DNA from: Planktothricoides raciborskii GIHE-MW2
GTDB lineage: Bacteria; Cyanobacteriota; Cyanobacteriia; Cyanobacteriales; Laspinemataceae
Reading direction: 5' to 3'
NCBI RefSeq assembly: GCF_040564635.1
Contig: NZ_CP159837.1
Location: 4,203,001-4,267,000, forward strand
DNA: 64,000 nt
Shown: piece by piece, positions 44,531 to 62,598 of the stretch
Layout: every line of letters begins with the position of its first letter
Position numbering within the stretch: position 1 is the stretch's first letter
Notes under the pieces: model-generated
What the model was told of the DNA's origin: nothing
The model's input: the letters and a program-made list of their open reading frames with translations, nothing else
Databases searched by the model: none
Translations under genes and position numbers: made by a program

Positions 44531-44725
44531 TTAAGAAGCTAACAGTTCTTGAATTGCTTTGTCCGACATTGACCGCCGAAAATCTAAAATTTCTATTAAA
44601 ACCAGCTTATTATTTTCAGAATAATGTAGGATAGTATCTCCTTCTTCTTCTGCATAGGCGATCGCCTCATCAGACAGTGAAATCAATAAAACATCTACAT
44701 CTTGACTATACTGAATCTTGTTCAT
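44531..44725 (-). CDS. DUF2283-family small protein
   Basis: The 64-residue protein MNKIQYSQDVDVLLISLSDE... matches the DUF2283 pattern: a first strand, DVLLISLSD, a short acidic turn, and LVLIEILDFR near the end. The frame extends to 44791, but the ATG at 44725 has GGAGGAG about 9 bases upstream and gives the family start. Function unknown; such genes often sit beside DUF4258 toxin-like genes, but none is seen here. Confidence 0.75.
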   Translation of the reverse strand: MNKIQYSQDVDVLLISLSDEAIAYAEEEGDTILHYSENNKLVLIEILDFRRSMSDKAIQELLAS

Positions 44726-44812
44726 ATCGAGTTCTCCTCCCCGGATAAAGAGTAATGACGAGGATAAATGAGCTAAAGTCTCTCTTGGCATCGCTCAACC
44801 GTTATCAATCCA

Positions 44813-45358
44813 CTGTTTATGGTGCGTTACGGCTGGCATCAGAACCAATTATTTTCCCAAAAAATTAATTACCAGCCTAACGCACCCTACCAAATTTGGA
44901 AAACTGTTTATGGTGCGTTACGGCTGGCATAAGAACCAATTATTTTCCCCCAAAATTAATTACCAGCCTAACGCACCCTACCAAATTTGGAAAACTGTTT
45001 ATGGTGCGTTACGGCTGGCATCAGAACCAATTATTTTCCCAAAAAATTAATTACCAGCCTAACGCACCCTACCAAATTTGGAAAACTGTTTATGGTGCGT
45101 TACGGCTGGCATAAGAACCAATTATTTTCCCCCAAAATTAATTACCAGCCTAACGCACCCTACCAAATTTGGAAAACTGTTTATGGTGCGTTACGGCTGG
45201 CATCAGAACCAATTATTTTCCCCCAAAATTAATTACCAGCCTAACGCACCCTACCAAATTTGGAAAACTGTTTATGGTGCGTTACGGCTGGCATCAGAAC
45301 CAATTATTTTCCCCCAAAATTAATTACCAGCCTAACGCACCCTACCAAATTTGGAAAA
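44813..45358. repeat. Six tandem 91-bp satellite units with a stem-loop in each
   Basis: Six units start at 44813, 44904, 44995, 45086, 45177 and 45268. Each contains GGTGCGTTACGGCTGG and the near-complementary CCAGCCTAACGCACC. Units are nearly identical and differ at two sites (CATCAG or CATAAG; CCCAAAAAATT or CCCCCAAAATT), giving the order A-B-A-B-C-C. 91 is not a multiple of 3, and the overlapping open frames inside are artefacts of repetition. Confidence 0.95.
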
Positions 45359-45411
45359 CTGTGTTAACTTTGGGTTGTATAACCAAGATTTAATTAAGAA
45401 ACCCGGTTTCT

Positions 45412-46233
45412 ATGCTCGATCGCCATTTTCTGTATCTGACTGGACTGCCTTGTTCTGGCTTAGGATTTTTAAGTCAGCTTTTGGCACAACATCCCGATAT
45501 TTATAGCGATAATTTGCGATCGCCTCTATGCGATCTTCTGGTCAACTTCCGCTCGTTTATCACCACCAACCCCCAAGTAGCAAGCCATCTTCAGCAAGAC
45601 TTGAACCCCACAATGGAGCGATCGCTCTTAGGAATGCAAGGATTTATTAATGGGTGGTATGGGCAAATTGCTCAACCTTGGATTATTGATATTCATCCCC
45701 AGTGGTTACAACATTTAGAGTTAATTCACTTGCTTGACCCCAACTGCCGCATGGTGGTCTGCGTCCGAGAACTGGGACAAATTTGTGCGGCGATCGAAAA
45801 TCAACATCAAAAAACCCTGTTGTTAGATTTTCCCGAACAATTGGCTAACCTGTCCAGGGCAGAACGGGCACAAAAATTGTTTGCTCCCCAAGGGGCGATC
45901 GGTTCATTGCTCAAATCTTTAGAACAACTGCAAGATTTGGAAGACAGCTTACAACGACGAATGTTTTATGTAGTGTATGAGCATTTAGTTAGCGACCCAG
46001 AGGAAGTGCTAACAGAATTGCTAAAATGGTTAAACTTGTCGCCAATTTCACCAGATTTAACCCAAGTTAGTGGGTCAGTTCCGAATTATGCGGAATCTGC
46101 CGGTAAATATGTGGAAGAACCTTATAATTCTCAACAACCTTTAGTTTATTATACTCTCCCCAAGCGGTTTGAAATCACGATTCAACAAAATTTTCCCTGG
46201 TATTATCAACTTTTTTATCCCGGTCGATTGTAG
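45412..46233 (+). CDS. Sulfotransferase-like protein
   Basis: The 273-residue protein begins with LTGLPCSGLGFLSQLLAQHP, like the 5'-phosphosulfate loop of PAPS-dependent sulfotransferases. CVRELGQICAAI in the middle resembles the 3'-phosphate site. A late YEHLVSDPEEVLTELLKWL helix is typical of sulfotransferase-family proteins of bacteria. The acceptor is unknown; polysaccharide or lipid is possible. The ATG follows an AAACCCGGTTTCT repeat motif directly, so the leader is made of repeat DNA. The acetyltransferase gene follows closely on the same strand. Confidence 0.7.
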   Translation: MLDRHFLYLTGLPCSGLGFLSQLLAQHPDIYSDNLRSPLCDLLVNFRSFITTNPQVASHLQQDLNPTMERSLLGMQGFINGWYGQIAQPWIIDIHPQWLQHLELIHLLDPNCRMVVCVRELGQICAAIENQHQKTLLLDFPEQLANLSRAERAQKLFAPQGAIGSLLKSLEQLQDLEDSLQRRMFYVVYEHLVSDPEEVLTELLKWLNLSPISPDLTQVSGSVPNYAESAGKYVEEPYNSQQPLVYYTLPKRFEITIQQNFPWYYQLFYPGRL

Positions 46234-47306: not shown

Positions 47307-48590
47307 TTATTGCACAATGGCCACAGTTTTTTTAATCGCTTCATCTAAATTGTCCATCAAGGGAACCTTAATGGCCGATAAAGTCTTTTTGGCTTCAGCA
47401 AAGCGATTTCCCACCAAACGAACAATCAGTTTAGGTTTCCCGGTTAAAAAGTCTAGAGAATTGTCCGTATCGGCGTCTGCCTCAGCCGATGCCTTGGGAC
47501 TACTTTCTTGAGTGAGTGCCAGGACTTCTGGCTCCGCCTGGACGAAGGGGGCGATCGCACTGCGAGGAATCCCTTGCACATAAGCACTAATCACCTCAGC
47601 GGCCAACTCACAATCAATCGCCGAACCGATTAAATTCACCAAGATCACCTTCACACTGGGGTCTTTGCCAATCAGATTTAACCCTTGTTCCAAGCGTTCA
47701 CAGAGGCGTGAAGCGAAGCTATCCCGAAGGGAATCGCGATTAAAATCCATCCTGGCATCTCCGCCCAAATTGACAAAATTGGCCAACTTGCCTCCATAAA
47801 GGTGGATAAGATCCAAAGTGGCCATCGTCAACCCCACACCATTACAGAGGATGCCAATATTCCCATCCAGGGTGACAAAATTCAAATCCGGCGAAGTATC
47901 TAAAGACAATTCACCATTCACCCGGCAACTAATTTTCTGAGACAACTTGGCTAAATCCTCATGGCGGCAAATCGCCTCATCATTAGCACTGACCTTGCCA
48001 TCCAAAGCCATCACCTCCCCACTGCGGCTAATTCCCAACGGGTTAATTTCCACCAGATCCAAATCCTTGGCCACAAAGAGACGATACATCTTCTCCACAA
48101 TGGCACTGACGGACTTCACCAGAATTCCCGACAAGCCCATTTTCAGCACCAAGCGGCGAGCGTAAAATGGGGAAAACTCGTCTGCCACGACCACCTGCTG
48201 CATTTTCTCCATCGCCGACTCGGTACTGGTTCCCCCTTGCTGAGAACCCAACAACACCGGCCTACGGACAGTTTGATCCAGCACCACCGCCAGATACAAT
48301 TCTTTATCCGTATCATATTTAGCCTCAGCCAACAGCACTTCGGGATACTCACCCATAATCGGTAAATTAAAGATAGTTTGTGCAGCGGCCACCGCATCAA
48401 TGGTATTTTCCACAAAATTAATCCCACCCGCCTTGCCACGTCCAGTCGCTCGGACTTGGGACTTGAGCACCACCGGGTAAGGAATTTTTAATCCTTTAAG
48501 GTCTTTGGGATGGTCAATTCTTTGGGAGGGCAAGACCGGAATGCCCATTTCTCTAAATAATTCCTTCGCTTGGTACTCCAACAGATCCAT
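47307..48590 (-). CDS. sucC: Succinyl-CoA synthetase beta subunit, with an in-frame insertion
   Basis: The 427-residue protein has the ATP-grasp domain start MDLLEYQAKELFREMGIPVL, the glycine loop RATGRGKAGG (48-56), EINPLGI (181-187) and a C-terminal CoA-ligase domain with GNIGILCNGVGLTMATLDL. It partners SucD (37553-38482). Residues about 284-295, NRDSLRDSFASR, are encoded by an element (47706-47740) found also in the phosphoribosyltransferase and at 61657-61689. It sits between strand and helix of the CoA-ligase domain. The 3' end of the gene is Ala/Asp-rich. Confidence 0.9.
   Translation of the reverse strand: MDLLEYQAKELFREMGIPVLPSQRIDHPKDLKGLKIPYPVVLKSQVRATGRGKAGGINFVENTIDAVAAAQTIFNLPIMGEYPEVLLAEAKYDTDKELYLAVVLDQTVRRPVLLGSQQGGTSTESAMEKMQQVVVADEFSPFYARRLVLKMGLSGILVKSVSAIVEKMYRLFVAKDLDLVEINPLGISRSGEVMALDGKVSANDEAICRHEDLAKLSQKISCRVNGELSLDTSPDLNFVTLDGNIGILCNGVGLTMATLDLIHLYGGKLANFVNLGGDARMDFNRDSLRDSFASRLCERLEQGLNLIGKDPSVKVILVNLIGSAIDCELAAEVISAYVQGIPRSAIAPFVQAEPEVLALTQESSPKASAEADADTDNSLDFLTGKPKLIVRLVGNRFAEAKKTLSAIKVPLMDNLDEAIKKTVAIVQ
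47706..47740 (-). repeat. GCGATTCCC...CTTCACGC element inside sucC
   Basis: On the gene strand it reads GCGATTCCCTTCGGGATAGC and continues CTTCGCTTCACGC. It contains the small hairpin TCCC-TTC-GGGA. Nearly the same sequence lies in the phosphoribosyltransferase (53357-53390) and in the 317-residue gene (61657-61689). Confidence 0.85.
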
Positions 48591-48915
48591 AACAAATTCC
48601 TCTAGAAACTATTCCGCTCCTGACAATTGGCAGCAGCATACCGTTTAAAATCAATCTCAATATGTAGTGTCTCTTACTTGTGACCCAAAGGCCAATGGTA
48701 ATGGCCTGTTCATCTCGGTGGAAGTATAAGCTCTGCCGTAAGCTCCGATCGGAGTCGCTAACATTTGATATGGGATTTCGTTGCGCGATCGCGTCAACGT
48801 CACCCGTCTTTGCATCCAGGAAGAAAAAACCGGGACGCGGATGCATAATGGGAAAACAACCGTCAACCGTCCACAAACCTGTCAAAAATAATTTTATCAG
48901 TACATCTGAAGCCTT
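48591..48915. other. Divergent spacer sucC / 689-residue protein gene
   Basis: 325 bp without a supported gene. It has one GCGATCGC motif and ordinary composition. Promoters for both genes should be here; none was recognised. Confidence 0.4.
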
Positions 48916-50985
48916 ATGAATACAACACCCAAGCGGTCCTTACGCTCCCTAGAAAAGCAGTTGCAGCAATGCCTAGATGCTCAATTGTACGCCACTTGGC
49001 GCCAGTTGACGCCACTTGGCGCCACTTGCTCTACTTGGGGAGACCCCAAGACCGCAGTGGCTTCTTCACTTGGGGAGACCCCAAGACCGCAGTGGCTTCT
49101 CTACTTGGAGAGACCCCAAGATCGCACTGGCTTCTCTACTTGGGAAGACCCCAAGACCGCAGTGGCTTTAGAAAATTGTCCGATTCAAGTACGGTGTGCC
49201 ATTAAGAACGCCGATTTATTGGTGTTAGCCCAACATAAAGCCGAGTTCAGACCTGACCTGCAACAAACCTTTAAAGCCATTCATCAAGCCATTTTAAGCT
49301 TGTCTCCAGAACTAGCGGGAGAACTGCGTCTTTATTTGCGAGTCTTGGGTCAAGTCCAGCCCTATGCCTATCATGCCTTTAAACTGCCCCAACCTTTGGG
49401 ATCCGTGAAAACGGAGGCCAATGATGTCAACCCGTTGACCGCTTTTGCGTGGCTGGAAAAACTGATCGAAGATCATGAAAATCCTAGGGAGGCCATAGAA
49501 ACCTCCCCCTCGGAGGCATCTGAGTCTTCGGATCTGGTACTGAGCAACGAGAATCGTTTGGCTTTAAGCTCAGAGGCGGAAGCCACAGAAAAGGGTGAAT
49601 TGCGAAATCTCCAAGAACTTGAAGAGTTTCCTTCTGGTTTGTTTAATGAGTTGAACTTGTCAAAAGATGTTGATAGGCAGACCATAAAATTCAAAGAACT
49701 ACCCTCATGGTGGGGACAGGTTTCGGCCTACTTGTTTTTGTCTATAGCCTTATGTTCCGTGGGTCTGTACGCTTTTACTCGTCCTTGTGTGCTGGGGAAA
49801 TGTACAACCCTTGCTCAAGCCCAACAAGAGATTGACTCCGCCCAGAAAATTTTGGCCTCTGCCAAATATGCCCAAAATTTTGCCCAGGTGCAAAAGAAAT
49901 TCAATTTAGCCACTGAGCAACTGGAACAAATTCCCGTCTGGTCTGGCAAATATTTGGCAGCAAGGCGAATGGTGAATAATTATGAAATCGAAGCGACTCA
50001 AATTGACCAAGTAATGAACGCCTTGGAAATTGGCGCTGCGGCGTGGAAAAAAGCCCAAAATGCGCCGTTGCCTTTAGAGCGTTGGCGAGAGATTGAAGCT
50101 TCCTGGTCAAAGGCGATCACCCTACTGGAAAAAATTCCCCCCCAGTCAGAAGTTTATTCTTTTGCCCAAAACAAATTATCTGAGTATGAAGCCAATTTGC
50201 AGGCGATCGCCGCACGAGTCCAGCAAGAAGAATATGCGGCTAAAACCCTGCAAGAAATCCGGGAAAAAGCCGACCTAGCCTACACTCGGCAAGGAGTCGC
50301 CAGTGGTTTAGAAAGTTGGCAAGGAATTTATGACTTATGGGAAGAAATTGTCAACTTAATCCCCAAAATTCCCCCTTCTACAACGGCTTATGTTCAGTTA
50401 CAAGATTCAGTAGCGGAATATCGTAAACAACTGACCAAGGCTCGCGAACAGGAAGTTCAAGAACAAATCTCTCAAGAGACTTACGATATGGCGATCGCAA
50501 CTGCGGAACAAGCCCAGCAACTAAGCGAACAAAAACAATGGTCTAATGCTCTCAATAGCTGGACTGATGCACTCACATTAGCGCGTCAAATTCCTGACAA
50601 CACTTTCTACTCTGCCAAAGCACAATCCTTAGCCACCAGTTACACCAATGCTCGCAACGAAGCGGCAGTTAATCTCAAAAAAGCCACAATTTTACAAAAA
50701 ACTCAAAACGATCTGAAAAAACTCTGCAACGGCAATCCCCTAGTCTGCGAATACACCGTTACCGAAGATGTGATTAATGTTTGGCTGACTCCTGCCTACA
50801 TTCGTCATGTCAAACGAACTGCTTTACTTGCTGACCAAAAAGGCGATAATAAAGCTTTAGTTGGTATCGACAAACATTTGGATACTTTAAAAGTTGCCTT
50901 ACAAACTATTAGTGATAACGCCAAAATTCCCCTAGTCCTTTATGACTCCTACGGTGGATTAATTGGGCGTCATCCGAAAAATTAG
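48916..50985 (+). CDS. Membrane protein with long helical C-terminal region; repeat insertion near N-terminus
   Basis: The 689-residue protein has one membrane segment at about 271-290 (VSAYLFLSIALCSVGLYAF). Before it is a cytoplasmic part with NCPIQVRCAIKNADLLVLAQ (about 90-108), and after it a Gln/Ala/Glu-rich helical region with TPR-like spacing to about 610. A compact C-terminal domain contains a VCEYTVTEDVINVWLTPAY segment. I recognise no named family. Residues about 30-87 are encoded by tandem repeats, including a 35-bp unit in four copies read in successive frames, and differ sharply from the rest. Confidence 0.7.
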   Translation: MNTTPKRSLRSLEKQLQQCLDAQLYATWRQLTPLGATCSTWGDPKTAVASSLGETPRPQWLLYLERPQDRTGFSTWEDPKTAVALENCPIQVRCAIKNADLLVLAQHKAEFRPDLQQTFKAIHQAILSLSPELAGELRLYLRVLGQVQPYAYHAFKLPQPLGSVKTEANDVNPLTAFAWLEKLIEDHENPREAIETSPSEASESSDLVLSNENRLALSSEAEATEKGELRNLQELEEFPSGLFNELNLSKDVDRQTIKFKELPSWWGQVSAYLFLSIALCSVGLYAFTRPCVLGKCTTLAQAQQEIDSAQKILASAKYAQNFAQVQKKFNLATEQLEQIPVWSGKYLAARRMVNNYEIEATQIDQVMNALEIGAAAWKKAQNAPLPLERWREIEASWSKAITLLEKIPPQSEVYSFAQNKLSEYEANLQAIAARVQQEEYAAKTLQEIREKADLAYTRQGVASGLESWQGIYDLWEEIVNLIPKIPPSTTAYVQLQDSVAEYRKQLTKAREQEVQEQISQETYDMAIATAEQAQQLSEQKQWSNALNSWTDALTLARQIPDNTFYSAKAQSLATSYTNARNEAAVNLKKATILQKTQNDLKKLCNGNPLVCEYTVTEDVINVWLTPAYIRHVKRTALLADQKGDNKALVGIDKHLDTLKVALQTISDNAKIPLVLYDSYGGLIGRHPKN
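49034..49173 (+). repeat. Four tandem 35-bp units inside a gene, read in three frames
   Basis: Units start at 49034, 49069, 49104 and 49139. The core CTTGGGGAGACCCCAAG is a hairpin with 7-bp arms, followed by ACCGCAGTGGCTT. Because 35 leaves remainder 2 on division by 3, successive units encode TWGDPKTAVAS, LGETPRPQWLL, LERPQDRTGF and again TWEDPKTAVAL. All frames are stop-free. A degenerate GCCACTTGGCGCC repeat precedes the array. Confidence 0.95.
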
Positions 50986-51243
50986 TTATCCGTAGGGTGG
51001 GCAAACTAATCCCAAAGATAATTTATGGCGAATCACGATGGAAGCCCAACCGACATTATGATCCGTAGGGTGGGCAAACTAATCCCAAAGATAATTTATG
51101 GCGAATCACGATGGAATTTGCCCACCCTACATTATGCTTATGCGTAGAGTGGGCAAACGAATCCCAAAAATAATTTATGGCGAATCATCATGGAATTTGC
51201 CCACCCTACACTACTTATGGATTCCCGCATTCGCGGGAATGAC
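50986..51243. repeat. GTAGGGTGGGCAAA repeats, three units, and a REP palindrome
   Basis: Three units of about 73-79 bp start with CGTAGGGTGGGCAAAC at 50991, 51064 and 51143. Two of them close with TTTGCCCACCCTAC, giving hairpins. The REP palindrome ATTCCCGCATTCGCGGGAAT is at 51220-51240. The spacer separates convergent genes. Confidence 0.85.
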
Positions 51244-51269
51244 ATATGACTTGATAAGCCCACCCGACA

Positions 51270-52250
51270 TTAATCTTGTTCAAAAACTTTACCCAAAGCA
51301 GCCGGGGGTTGACTCCGAATTACTGGTAAAATCGCTCTGGCGATGGGATGGGGCAATTTTTCCAGTAACTTTTCTAACCAATTACTCTGAGTAATAACTA
51401 ACAACAAAATCATTAAAACAAAAGGGGCAACATTAAAAATTTGCGTGGGAATTTCGGGAATTGAACTTTGGGCAACACTGGCCAAAGATTGCAAAATTCC
51501 AAATAAATAACAGCCCAAAGCTACTCGCAAAGGATTCCAGCCCCCAAAAATCACAATTGCTAAGACAATCCAGCCATATCCTGCGGTATGTCGGTGACTC
51601 CAACCGGCTTTAAAATCCAAAGAAAAAGCCGCCCCAGCTATGCCCATTAATGCCCCACCTAACAAGGTATAAATATAGCGCATTAAAATCACATTCGTCC
51701 CCCTAGCAAACGCTGCCGCTGGTTGTTCACCCAGGGATCTGAGCATCAGTCCGGGACGGGTGCGATAAAAATATATCCAGGTGAAAAAAATTAAAAAATA
51801 GCTGACATAAACCAGTAAATCTCCCTGAAAAAATATCTCCCCTAAAAAGGGAATATGTTGTAATACAGGCAGTTTAAAACTGGGAACCGTTGGCCCAGGA
51901 ACTCGGACAAATTCGTTGCCCAAAAACGAGGATAAATCACTACATAATAACGCTAAAACAAAGCCAATGGCAATTTGGGATTGTTTTAGCGTTAACGCCC
52001 CAAAAGCAACAATGAAAGCGATCGCAGCCCCGACACAACCGGCGCCCAAAAAACCTAATAATAAACTATTGGTGGTTTTGGCGATCGCAAATCCTGTCAT
52101 CGCCCCCATTAAAATCGTGCCTTCTGCTGACAGGTTAATCACCCCAGCCCGTTCAGTAATCGTTTCCCCAAGACAACCAAAAACCAGCGGGGTTGAAGTG
52201 GCGATCGCGGTGGCCAAAATAGCAATAATTTGAGTTCCTTCCACTGTCAT
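51270..52250 (-). CDS. ABC transporter permease, nucleoside/BMP-type (BPD_transp_2)
   Basis: The 326-residue protein has eight or more hydrophobic helices. GETITERAGVINLSAEGTILMGA at the start and RSLGEQPAAAFARGTNV in the loop are characteristic of the second permease of nucleoside or basic-membrane-lipoprotein-dependent importers. The likely substrate is nucleosides or related compounds. ATG at 52250 is chosen over an overlapping TTG at 52253. The ATPase, partner permease and binding protein are not seen next to it. A disrupted small membrane ORF lies 95 bp upstream. Confidence 0.85.
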   Translation of the reverse strand: MTVEGTQIIAILATAIATSTPLVFGCLGETITERAGVINLSAEGTILMGAMTGFAIAKTTNSLLLGFLGAGCVGAAIAFIVAFGALTLKQSQIAIGFVLALLCSDLSSFLGNEFVRVPGPTVPSFKLPVLQHIPFLGEIFFQGDLLVYVSYFLIFFTWIYFYRTRPGLMLRSLGEQPAAAFARGTNVILMRYIYTLLGGALMGIAGAAFSLDFKAGWSHRHTAGYGWIVLAIVIFGGWNPLRVALGCYLFGILQSLASVAQSSIPEIPTQIFNVAPFVLMILLLVITQSNWLEKLLEKLPHPIARAILPVIRSQPPAALGKVFEQD

Positions 52251-52345
52251 CAATTGTAAAAATTTAACAATTTAATTATCCCCATAAGATTATGACCAAA
52301 ACAGACTCATCGAACCGAAAAAAATAAATTATCTGCGGTAATAAT

Positions 52346-52627
52346 TCAGAACATAGACGATAAAAAAATCAAACTAATCCAGAAAAAAATTATAGACAAA
52401 CATAGCACCGCCGTGGCTTGAGTTAAACGGCCAGGAATGGGCGGAGAAATCGCCGTTCTCACCCAAATTGATGTGGCATTTCCTAAAACAAAACTGGCAC
52501 AAAGCACCAAGTATGGCTACTGGTTCAGGTTCAGTAACCAAAAAATAGCCATTATAATCGCCAGAAAAATCATCACCCACTCAATAAATCGAGGCGGATC
52601 AAATTCAAAACATCGGATTAAATTCAT
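52346..52627 (-). pseudogene. Small membrane-protein ORF interrupted by an amber codon
   Basis: From the ATG at 52627 the minus strand encodes MNLIRCFEFDPPRFIEWVMI and a membrane helix, then a TAG at codon 37 (52517-52519). The same frame then continues without stops for 56 codons with two more helices (about 38-50 and 75-92) and ends at TGA 52346-52348. The uninterrupted product would be 93 residues with three membrane segments. This suggests a recent nonsense mutation, sequencing error, or chance. No family is recognised. Confidence 0.4.
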
Positions 52628-52686
52628 CGGCCTAATATTTACTCAACGATTGCCAGAATACATTCATTAATGTCTATCCTTAATGT

Positions 52687-53409
52687 CTAAAATTGCCGCT
52701 GATTATATTTTTCCAAATAGGCTTGAGCTTCGCTTAAGTCTACTTGAGGAAAGTCAACATAAAATCGACTGACACTGATAAAAGGATCGGGAGTTGCTAG
52801 GACGATCGCGCGATCGCACCACTCCTCTAATGAGGACATTAATTGTAAGGGGGCTACGGGTACAGCAATCCAAACCTGGGCTGGTTTTTGCGCTTGCATC
52901 GCTTTAGCGGCCACTGCCATAGTCATCCCAGTAGCAATCCCATCATCAACCAAAATAGCAATTTTTCCCTCCGGGCTAACGTGCGGGCGAAATTTGCTCA
53001 ACTGGGCTAACTGGGCTTCAGCTTTAGCTTGGGCGTGATGGACATCTTTCTCCCGAATTCGGCCATTATAAATCGATGAACCCATCTCCTGATGACCCCA
53101 AACAATCTCACCATCAGGAGTCAACGCCCCAATTGCCAACTCTGGATTAAACACCGTAGTAATTTTTTTCGCCACCACAATATCTAACGGACACTGGAGT
53201 TGTTCAGCGATCGGCACAGCCACGGGCAACCCCCCTCTCGGCAAAGCATAGACAATTGGTTTAGCTTGGGCGATCGCGGGATCGCCCCTACACTCGCTTC
53301 TCAGTTGGGTCAATTCTGCAACAATGGCAGCCGCCAGTTGCTTTCCCGCCTCGGCCCGTGAAGCGAAGCTATCCCGAAAAGAATCGCGGAAAATTGGTAT
53401 CGACGACAT
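52687..53409 (-). CDS. Phosphoribosyltransferase family protein with in-frame insertion
   Basis: The 240-residue protein has the PRPP-binding motif AILVDDGIATGMTMAVAA and the early segment YALPRGGLPVAVPIAEQL. Such stand-alone proteins are common in cyanobacteria and their substrate is unresolved. The N-terminus reads IFRDSFRDSFASRAEAGKQL. Related proteins typically read FRDR(T/A)EAG at this point, so about eight residues appear to be inserted, and this insert is encoded by the element seen also in sucC. Confidence 0.82.
   Translation of the reverse strand: MSSIPIFRDSFRDSFASRAEAGKQLAAAIVAELTQLRSECRGDPAIAQAKPIVYALPRGGLPVAVPIAEQLQCPLDIVVAKKITTVFNPELAIGALTPDGEIVWGHQEMGSSIYNGRIREKDVHHAQAKAEAQLAQLSKFRPHVSPEGKIAILVDDGIATGMTMAVAAKAMQAQKPAQVWIAVPVAPLQLMSSLEEWCDRAIVLATPDPFISVSRFYVDFPQVDLSEAQAYLEKYNQRQF
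53357..53390 (-). repeat. GCGATTC...CTTCACG element inside the phosphoribosyltransferase gene
   Basis: On the gene strand it reads CGCGATTCTTTTCGGGATAG and continues CTTCGCTTCACG. It differs from the sucC copy at only a few bases and encodes RDSFASR in the same reading frame as there. Confidence 0.85.
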
Positions 53410-60901: not shown

Positions 60902-61642
60902 ATGCTCACTGCCGATCGCATTATTGTTCCTTTAGATGTACCCACCTTCGCTGCGGCGATCGCCCTGGTGGAAACCTTGCCCGATGTCAGTTTTTGGAAA
61001 GTTGGGCTAGAACTCTTTGTCAGCAGTGGCCCGGAGATTCTGGCGGAACTGAAACAACGACAAAAACGCATTTTTCTCGATTTAAAGTTTCACGATATCC
61101 CAAATACGGTGGCGGGGGCTTGCCGTTCCGCCGCCCAGTATGGCGTAGACTTACTCACCATTCATGCCACCGCTGGTCGCCGAGCCCTCCAAGATGCTCA
61201 AGCTGCTTTATCAGAACCCCCCCTAAATTCCCCCCCTTTTGAAGGGGGGGCAGGGGGGGTTCAGCCACCAAAACTCATCGCCATTACTCTACTGACCAGC
61301 CTAAGCTCGCGGGATTTAGCTTTTGATCTAAAAGTGCCGGTGGAGTTACCACAATTTACTCTGGAAATGGCGCTGATGGCTAAAGAATGCGGGTTAGCCG
61401 GTGCAGTCTGTTCTCCCCATGAAGCGAAACAAATCAAACAACTGTGCGGTCAGGATTTTCTGTTGGTTTGCCCTGGGGTCAGACCGCACACCATCTCAGT
61501 TACGGGAGATCAAAAACGGACAATGACTCCCGCAGATGCCATTAAATCCGGTGCGGATTATTTGGTGATTGGCCGACCGATTACGGCTGCGGAGGATCCG
61601 GTGGCGGCCTTTGCCCGCATTTGTGAGGAACTTGGCACTTAG
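60902..61642 (+). CDS. pyrF: Orotidine 5'-phosphate decarboxylase with in-frame C/G repeat insertion
   Basis: It makes UMP from OMP, the last step of pyrimidine synthesis. The 246 residues begin [14 protein letters not shown] and have the catalytic Asp60-Lys62-Asp65 set in [10 protein letters not shown] and the phosphate-binding end [19 protein letters not shown]. Residues 105-123, [19 protein letters not shown], are encoded by the C/G palindrome at 61214-61262, which is absent from typical pyrF and sits in the loop after DAQAALS. Confidence 0.9.
61214..61262 (+). repeat. C/G palindrome inside pyrF
   Basis: GAACCCCCCC and GGGGGGGTTC are the outer arms, and CCCCCCCTTTT and GAAGGGGGGG the inner ones. 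It is the same element family as at 3498, 38784, 44129 and 44168. Confidence 0.88.
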
Positions 61643-61644
61643 AA

Positions 61645-62598
61645 ATGGAGAAAAAAGCGATTCCCTGCGGGATAGCTCCGCTTCACGCCTCTTTAAAAGT
61701 AGGGGCGAACGGCTGTTCGCCCCTACCCGCCCCCTTATCAGTTGGCTTACTGGTTGTTTGCCTGCTGTTGTTTGAGATGTTATTACCACCAGGAACGAAA
61801 GATCCCCGGCTTTTTCCACAAGCCGGGGATCTGTTTAACGGTTTATTCTCTTTAAGGGCGAATGCATCGATTCCTGGTGAAGCGATCGCGCATCCGCAAC
61901 CAGGCGCGATATTGCATCCGCAACGCTACGCGAACGCTCTCAACCGTTCTACTTGCCCAGAAAACCTGCAAGCCTTGATTGCCCAAATGCTACCCGACTT
62001 GCCCGGATATGCCAATCGAGTCCTGCGCCGTTCGTCGATTTCGGATCAAGTAGGGGCGAATCGCTCTTCGCCCCTACTCAACATTTATGTCATCACTGCC
62101 GGGAACCCTGAGTTTGAGCCTTTACCCCTCGGTGCGGGTCGGTCTACCACTGGTCGTCCCAGTACCAGGCAGGAAAATTCCCCCCCCAGTAGGGGCGAAG
62201 AGCGAATCGCGGGCGAACAGCCGTTCGCCCCTACTTTGCCTTCTTTGAATTCTGAATCGAATTCTGAATCAGAACCCGATTCATCTTCCTCCGATCGACC
62301 CCGGACGCCAAACGATGATCCACAACAAGTTTTTATTACTACTTTAGAACGACAATATCGCGGGAATCAAGTTGTAGAAATCCCGCGATATCATTGGTTA
62401 TTTTTAACTAAAACCACTGAGGGTTGGCGTCTTGCCTTGATATTTTCTCGGATGGGTTCAAATCGACCCAGTAGGGGCGAACGGCCTTTCGCCCCTACCC
62501 CACCAGAAGAAAGTTCTGATAGTTTCATGGCTGAGGCGATTCGTTTGTGGTTACGAGATTTATGGTTAAAAAGCTGTAGCGATCGCCATAATTCTTAA
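61645..62598 (+). CDS. Unrecognised secreted protein gene riddled with palindromes
   Basis: The 317-residue frame starts 2 bases after pyrF. A hydrophobic segment at about 32-42 (LLVVCLLLF) looks like a displaced signal peptide. Residues CPENLQALIAQMLPDLPGYA, the INGTT-like NIYVITAGNPEFEPLPLG, QQVFITTLERQYRG and RYHWLFLTKTTEGWRLALIF look like a coherent conserved protein of cyanobacteria that I cannot name. Between these blocks lie low-complexity pieces encoded by at least six palindromic elements. The true start is uncertain because the 5' end is itself repeat DNA. Confidence 0.6.
   Translation: MEKKAIPCGIAPLHASLKVGANGCSPLPAPLSVGLLVVCLLLFEMLLPPGTKDPRLFPQAGDLFNGLFSLRANASIPGEAIAHPQPGAILHPQRYANALNRSTCPENLQALIAQMLPDLPGYANRVLRRSSISDQVGANRSSPLLNIYVITAGNPEFEPLPLGAGRSTTGRPSTRQENSPPSRGEERIAGEQPFAPTLPSLNSESNSESEPDSSSSDRPRTPNDDPQQVFITTLERQYRGNQVVEIPRYHWLFLTKTTEGWRLALIFSRMGSNRPSRGERPFAPTPPEESSDSFMAEAIRLWLRDLWLKSCSDRHNS
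61657..61689 (+). repeat. GCGATTCCC...CTTCACGCC element, third copy
   Basis: It reads GCGATTCCCTGCGGGATAGC and continues CCGCTTCACGCC. It lies at the 5' end of the 317-residue frame and would encode AIPCGIAPLHA, a different frame from the sucC copy. Confidence 0.8.
61699..61726 (+). repeat. GTAGGGGCGAAC palindrome, copy 1
   Basis: GTAGGGGCGAAC and GTTCGCCCCTAC form 12-bp arms around GGCT. Related copies lie at 62050-62077, 62189-62234 and 62471-62498. Confidence 0.92.
61800..61832 (+). repeat. 13-bp inverted repeat AGATCCCCGGCTT
   Basis: AGATCCCCGGCTT (61800-61812) pairs perfectly with AAGCCGGGGATCT (61820-61832). A degenerate relative lies in the spacer at 20728-20753. Confidence 0.9.
62050..62077 (+). 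repeat. GTAGGGGCGAA palindrome, copy 2
   Basis: 11-bp arms GTAGGGGCGAA and TTCGCCCCTAC around TCGCTC, in frame within the secreted-protein gene. Confidence 0.92.
62189..62234 (+). repeat. GTAGGGGCGAA palindrome, copy 3 (46 bp)
   Basis: GTAGGGGCGAA and TTCGCCCCTAC are outer arms. The centre holds a further GCGAATCGC motif, so this may be a composite of two copies. Confidence 0.9.
62471..62498 (+). repeat. GTAGGGGCGAA palindrome, copy 4
   Basis: GTAGGGGCGAA faces TTCGCCCCTAC with one mismatch, around CGGCCT. Encodes SRGERPFAP. Confidence 0.88.

Follow-up and report, generated by a model that had tools for sequence, protein, structure and literature searches.

How can one and the same short stretch of DNA come to lie, in frame, in two unrelated conserved enzymes? 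The question arises in the 64-kb window analysed here (the whole stretch of 64,000 nucleotides from the genome of Planktothricoides raciborskii GIHE-MW2, a single contig of 7.2 Mb). An earlier reading, made from the sequence alone, had claimed that near-identical elements lie in the same frame in sucC and in a phosphoribosyltransferase gene, and that a third copy lies in a different frame.

Results

A 24-nt unit placed inside the HIP1 octamer

The window holds three near-identical copies of the element, which match one 31-mer at 47707-47737 (0 mismatches), 53357-53387 (2 mismatches) and 61657-61687 (minus strand; 2 mismatches). As 100 shuffles yielded no copy, a chance origin is excluded, and the same element does occur in both genes. 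The two gene copies share their frame on the minus strand, being read as RDSLRDSFASR in sucC and as RDSFRDSFASR in the phosphoribosyltransferase gene. The third copy is indeed read in another frame, as AIPCGIAPLHA at the N-terminus of the ORF 61645-62598, or lies just upstream of this ORF if its true start is later. The site of this third copy is also filled in G001, a genome of the same genus.

The inserted unit is exactly 24 nt long and stands within HIP1, an octamer of cyanobacteria (GCGATCGC), or within a near copy of it, between bases 3 and 4, so that the whole reads GCG-TGAAGCGAAGCTATCCCGAAGGGA-ATCGC. Where filled and empty alleles were compared (a GAF-domain ORF and the CobL gene, see below), they differ by exactly 24 nt and no target duplication occurs. 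By inspection, the edges of the 24-mer are TGAAGC and AGGGA. The remaining eight bases of each copy come from the split target word, which is HIP1 or a near copy of it; joined together, the flanks of copy 1 restore HIP1 itself. The insert had been given as 33-35 bp, or 11-12 residues, a length that we reject because the empty sites of the phosphoribosyltransferase and CobL relatives show a net insert of 24 nt, or eight residues.

Table 1. Positions of the element copies, their host genes and other repeats in the window.
Feature	Position	Strand	Details
Copy 1 with split target	47706..47737	-	GCG 47706-47708; 24-nt element 47709-47732; ATCGC 47733-47737
Copy 2 with split target	53356..53387	-	CCG 53356-53358; 24-nt element 53359-53382; ATCGC 53383-53387
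Copy 3 with split target	61657..61688	+	GCGAT 61657-61661; 24-nt element 61662-61685; CGC 61686-61688
sucC (succinyl-CoA ligase beta subunit)	47307..48590	-	insert = residues 287-294, SLRDSFAS
Phosphoribosyltransferase gene (Pribosyltran; similar to PDB 1wd5, TT1426)	52687..53409	-	insert = residues 10-17, SFRDSFAS
Tandem array	44721-45448		91-bp unit, about eight units
Tandem repeat in ORF 48916-50985	49029-49203		35-nt unit, about four to five units
Palindromic stretch in the phosphoribosyltransferase gene	53268-53291		GTAGGGGCGATCCCGCGATCGCCC, about 23 codons after the element
C-run/G-run palindrome in the pyrF-like ORF 60902-61642 (name by eye)	61217-61270		CCCCCCCTTTTGAAGGGGGGG at 61230, read in frame

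The element does not fold better than its shuffled versions, either as RNA (z scores of -0.87 and -0.03 for the two strands) or as DNA (z scores of -0.61 and -0.41), and its description as a hairpin element on the basis of folding energy was dropped. Similarly, the 24-nt peak in the GCG-Nn-ATCGC spacings of the Microcoleus-type sample (54 counts) was discarded, a spacing of 51 nt giving 53 counts.

Other repeats occur in the window (Table 1). The palindrome of the pyrF-like ORF is another repeat that is apparently translated in a conserved gene. The ORF 61645-62598 contains several GTAGGGGCGAA..TTCGCCCCTAC palindromes, some of which are read through in frame, and its same-genus counterpart seems to lack the first of them. 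Since 35 is not a multiple of three, the single protein encoded by the ORF 48916-50985 reads the same DNA in different frames.

The insert is missing from the orthologues outside the genus

SucC matches were found in 37 genomes and phosphoribosyltransferase matches in 36, and in each case orthologues from 30 of these genomes were aligned. In each protein the insert is confined to the genome of the window and to G001 of the same genus; all 28 other orthologues are devoid of it. Relatives that lack the element elsewhere and still carry the residues, which would have spoken against the earlier reading, do not occur among these orthologues, and the proposal of a DNA element inserted in frame in conserved enzymes is borne out. 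Of the 11 genomes that belong to the family but not to the genus, 8 nevertheless harbour the element elsewhere (1-56 copies). All eight genomes of the genus g5 lack it in SucC and in the phosphoribosyltransferase, and the seven that were aligned for CobL lack it there as well.

In SucC, the nearest relatives have DLTPELLCDR in place of DFNRD[SLRDSFAS]RLCER and are shorter there by exactly eight residues; the insert falls inside the Ligase_CoA match (residues 248-336; Pfam). The length of the protein at this spot varies in distant relatives, one of which (L035) has an unrelated insert there. The structure predicted from the single SucC sequence has a mean pLDDT of 31 and is uninformative as to the insert. 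In the phosphoribosyltransferase, FRD[SFRDSFAS]RAEAG, which lies outside the Pfam match (residues 24-190), stands against FRDRADAG and similar stretches, with an eight-column gap in 28 of 28 orthologues, so that the insert splits the motif as had been supposed. An intact HIP1 occurs exactly at this spot in 15 of the 27 readable relatives. It occurs at the exact sucC spot in none of the relatives compared, and therefore the sucC target is deduced from the flanks. The two genomes of the genus have the same 24 bases in sucC, and the G001 copy of the phosphoribosyltransferase insert has an R-to-Q change. The second palindromic stretch of the phosphoribosyltransferase gene (Table 1) is the place where the proteins of the window's genome and of G001 exceed the other orthologues in length.

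The clearest case is a third enzyme, a CobL-type methyltransferase encoded elsewhere in the genome, with the insert between two Pfam domains. At this site G001 reads TTT CGC GAT CGC CCC; in the window's genome 24 nt interrupt this word, giving GCG-24 nt-ATCGC on the opposite strand. None of the 29 other loci, that of G001 included, has the eight residues, and an intact HIP1 is present at the spot in 14 of the 26 readable relatives.

Distribution of the element in cyanobacteria

At up to three mismatches, the genome of the window has 15 matching places: ten belong to the element family, four to a sister form, and one (L023, three mismatches) was taken as chance. Two more family copies, each with a further insert, bring the family to 12 copies, of which eight are read in the DSLRDSFASR frame (one of them in an open stretch of 89 codons, another with no upstream start codon), two in the AIP frame and two in no long open frame. 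L001 and L007 of this genome have a further insert of 24 nt (our count) in the first loop (ACCCTACGGGAAGGCGGAACG(C/T)CT), and thus appear as nested repeats. The sister form, GCG-ATTCCCNNNGGGATCGCTNCGCGA-ATCGC, also places 24 nt in HIP1, at L019-L022 in this genome and at L359 and L360 in G001. Five sites are common to the two genomes (four of the element family and one of the sister form), CobL being filled in the former and empty in the latter. In G001, L355 lies in an ORF that resembles, by eye, the N-lobe of a Ser/Thr kinase (VYLVRRDSLRDSFAYRTGEKSALKI). A 3,019-base stretch surrounding another copy of the window's genome shares 99.97% identity with Planktothricoides sp. SR001.

At up to one mismatch, the element is present in 11 of the 14 genomes of the family (the genome of the window, a second one of the species, G001 and the eight of the genus g5, with 1-56 copies each) and absent from the three genomes of other genera. 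The second genome of the species (G433) has 7 matches and that of the window 8, a difference that may be either a very recent event or an assembly gap. The element is found in 17 of the 386 genomes of a phylum sample and, with a half-fixed pattern, in all 29 genomes of the genus g6 (3 to 32 copies each), which we call Microcoleus-type on the strength of its filled ORFs, since these cluster with ORFs from named Microcoleus records. Reversed-pattern controls gave no match in any genome row. Named genome contigs contain at least 120 stretches with the element, and the hosts among the matches listed (80 stretches) include Microcoleus, Tychonema, Planktothricoides, Trichocoleus, Limnofasciculus, Lyngbya and Nostoc. 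The search of phages returned no match, and that of plasmids returned one partial match, on a Calothrix plasmid. One site in a DegT-type aminotransferase is filled in the genomes of two families (L085 in G028 and L097 in G103), as a result of transfer, shared descent or repeated insertion.

Reading frames of the copies in genes

We examined 112 copies from the window's own genome, the phylum sample and named contigs among the matches listed, after merging near-identical contexts. Open frames of at least 100 codons contain 72 of them, at 57 distinct sites, and the other 40 lie outside long ORFs. The 57 sites are read as DSLRDSFASR (28), AIPYGIASLH (15), VKRSYPVGNR (7), REAKLSRRES (6) or otherwise (1); the ORFs were called mechanically, and some of them, especially the short AIP ones, may be spurious. 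Pfam scans covered 52 of the 57 sites, 50 of them together and two separately. Of the 50 scanned ORFs, 37 have a match and 13 have none; the insert lies inside the matched stretch in 18, and SucC is a further such case. The domains holding the insert are CHAT, DegT aminotransferase, two NRPS condensation domains, NAD(P)H-hydrate dehydratase, GAF, DUF4394, AbiEii, UreF, HATPase, Uma2, Omp85, glycosyltransferase 2, fructosamine kinase/APH, esterase, ResIII, M61 and methyltransferase.

Because 24 is a multiple of three, the element often lengthens the product by eight residues and leaves the gene unbroken. HIP1 can be read in three codon frames and two orientations, and four of these six combinations are stop-free, giving DSLRDSFASR (DR frame), AIPYGIASLHA (AIA), REAKLSRRES (RS) and VKRSYPVGNR (DR, other orientation), each of which adds eight residues. 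HIP1 words in ORFs are read AI/DR/RS in 197/140/45 cases in the own-genome sample (with the window) and in 124/64/27 cases in the Microcoleus-type sample, and from this usage and the four stop-free combinations about 67% of the hits in ORFs would stay open. Frame preservation is thus largely a consequence of placing a 24-nt unit in HIP1. The DSL, VKR, AIP and REA readings were observed 28, 7, 15 and 6 times, against 14.3, 14.3, 22.4 and 5.0 expected from the HIP1 baseline (p = 2e-4), i.e., a twofold excess of DSL, a twofold shortage of VKR and a slight shortage of AIP. DSL and VKR, which use the same HIP1 codon frame in opposite orientations, stand at 28:7 (p = 5e-4). We read the DSL excess as probable tolerance of a hydrophilic loop, and a bias in the orientation of insertion is another possible source of it; the mechanical ORF calls add noise to these counts.

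Target preference beyond HIP1

Among 123 copies, mostly from Microcoleus-type genomes, the two bases before the target are G in 51-77% of cases (background 36-39%), and a run of T follows the target, with 50-79% T at four positions versus 26-41% around HIP1. Both biases are present inside and outside ORFs; they are not clear in the Planktothricoides copies. Of the 123 copies, 60 have the C with which HIP1 ends, approximately the background of GCGATCGN (520/1004 in the Microcoleus-type sample). Either the word has decayed in the others or the target is looser than the full octamer, with a core that may be GCGATCG. Since the T-run stands on one side only, it would give the insertion a direction.

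Filled and empty loci among Microcoleus-type genomes

A HIP1 site in a GAF-domain ORF could be followed in 27 of the 29 Microcoleus-type genomes, where six loci are filled and 21 empty, exactly 24 nt apart, the full octamer being present in 11 of the 21 empty loci. On the tree, this distribution takes at least six changes between the filled and the empty state, of which starred branches force four. Filled loci show no more clustering than labels that have been shuffled, and in two pairs of sisters one member is filled and the other empty. All six filled copies have the same orientation and five share an identical 24-mer; this identity favours a single gain, followed by precise losses or recombination, over independent gains. 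Recombination between species could account for part of the scattered pattern. At a second site, in the NAD(P)H-hydrate dehydratase, 22 of 29 loci are filled (one of them decayed), four are empty by 24 nt and three are irregular.

Discussion

A proposed small mobile element and the alternatives to it

We propose, with a probability of about 85%, that these copies belong to a 24-nt non-autonomous mobile element of the 'small dispersed repeat' type, which lands in HIP1 and survives where it is tolerated. The copies surviving in genes would be those where eight additional residues are tolerated, the hydrophilic reading DSLRDSFASR being presumably tolerated best, and SucC, the phosphoribosyltransferase and CobL would keep working with their insert. 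Movement would be driven in trans by a putative enzyme recognising the HIP1 core, and an RNA or a single-stranded form may serve as the intermediate.

That the inserts are instead old conserved protein loops, similar in DNA by coincidence or convergence, might be suggested by their presence in the SucC and phosphoribosyltransferase of both genomes of the genus. It hardly deserves any credence, since 40 of the 112 copies lie outside long ORFs, the same 24 nt are found in four readings, and the residues are absent from 28 of 28 orthologues of each enzyme outside the genus and from CobL within it; these empty sites and non-ORF copies refute it. A rather unlikely alternative, which deserves far more weight, concerns the GAF-domain site, where homologous recombination among Microcoleus-type species around an old, immobile insert would generate the mosaic and would agree with the single orientation and the five identical 24-mers. 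The orientation is uninformative, however, as only one is stop-free at this site, and an immobile insert fits poorly with a CobL gene that has the insert in one species but not in its congener, or with a copy number spanning 1 to 56 in g5.

It is also conceivable, though improbable, that the element has been domesticated and is retained for a benefit of its peptide or RNA, to which the excess of the DSLRDSFASR reading and the identity of the 24 sucC bases in both genomes of the genus could be ascribed. Tolerance explains the reading bias equally well, though, the orthologues outside the genus do without the element, and the phosphoribosyltransferase copy of G001 has changed an R to a Q. Starting again from the small mobile element, a wider scheme can tentatively be drawn, possible but to be doubted as a whole: a still-mobile 24-nt element, with HIP1 as its landing pad and scarless entry and exit, would act across filamentous cyanobacteria as a frame-safe peptide-insertion system that repeatedly brings the same eight-residue loop into core enzymes, and the T-run downstream of the Microcoleus-type target would make the insertion directional and hint at a single-strand or RNA-primed mechanism.

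Relation to known repeats

The small dispersed repeats of cyanobacteria are 21-27 nt long, a range that fits the 24 nt of the element, and they share a secondary structure backed by compensatory changes. One of them, SDR5, was reportedly described by Elhai et al. (2008, Genome Res.) and, to our knowledge, is located exclusively within HIP1. According to a passage of PMC4390886, SDR5 inserts between nucleotides 3 and 4 of HIP1; thus, a cyanobacterial equivalent is already in print as a mobile repeat, where the sequence-only reading knew of none. Set beside the element by description, SDR5 resembles it in being a tiny, presumably mobile dispersed repeat placed at HIP1 bases 3/4, as is GCG-24 nt-ATCGC, with the full octamer in 11/21 (GAF-domain ORF) and 14/26 (CobL) empty loci. 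Unlike SDR5, the element has its hosts mainly in Planktothricoides, Microcoleus and their relatives; many of its copies are read in frame within conserved proteins, and the last C of HIP1 is often missing where the host is of the Microcoleus type.

The parallel drawn earlier with the Rickettsia palindromic elements is right as to the way of insertion, in frame and into many unrelated genes with a presumed function (passages of PMC10969869 and PMC3733652), and fails as to size, these elements being given as about 150 bp (PMC10969869) against 24 nt. Their hosts are unrelated, and the passages concerned name no target word, whereas that of the element is HIP1. The element works like the Rickettsia palindromic elements and is not one of them. 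The Nezha-type cyanobacterial MITEs, the GTAG-tagged REPs and the REPINs are likewise short non-autonomous repeats, some of them cyanobacterial, in the passages of PMC3733652 and PMC3116915. The 24-mer differs from MITEs by its size, well below the 70-300 bp stated in PMC3733652, and by the absence of target duplication and (by inspection) of terminal inverted repeats; it differs from the GTAG-tagged REPs in having, by inspection, no GTAG at its edge.

A partial literature search found no paper that prints the letters of the element and none on in-frame HIP1-borne repeats in enzymes; Elhai et al. may discuss genic copies. As far as this partial search goes, the wide in-frame use in enzymes may be new. 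These findings link a mobile element to HIP1, an abundant octamer of unsettled role. The length of 24 nt, together with the few codon phases of the target word, gives a simple reason for the spread of the element through genes. The findings also mean that DSLRDSFASR and its three sister peptides should be annotated as translated repeats and not as motifs. Together, they provide dozens of protein-coding genes with a natural insertion of eight residues, in some cases with a congener whose empty site serves as a control, and offer a site where gain and loss can be traced between close species.
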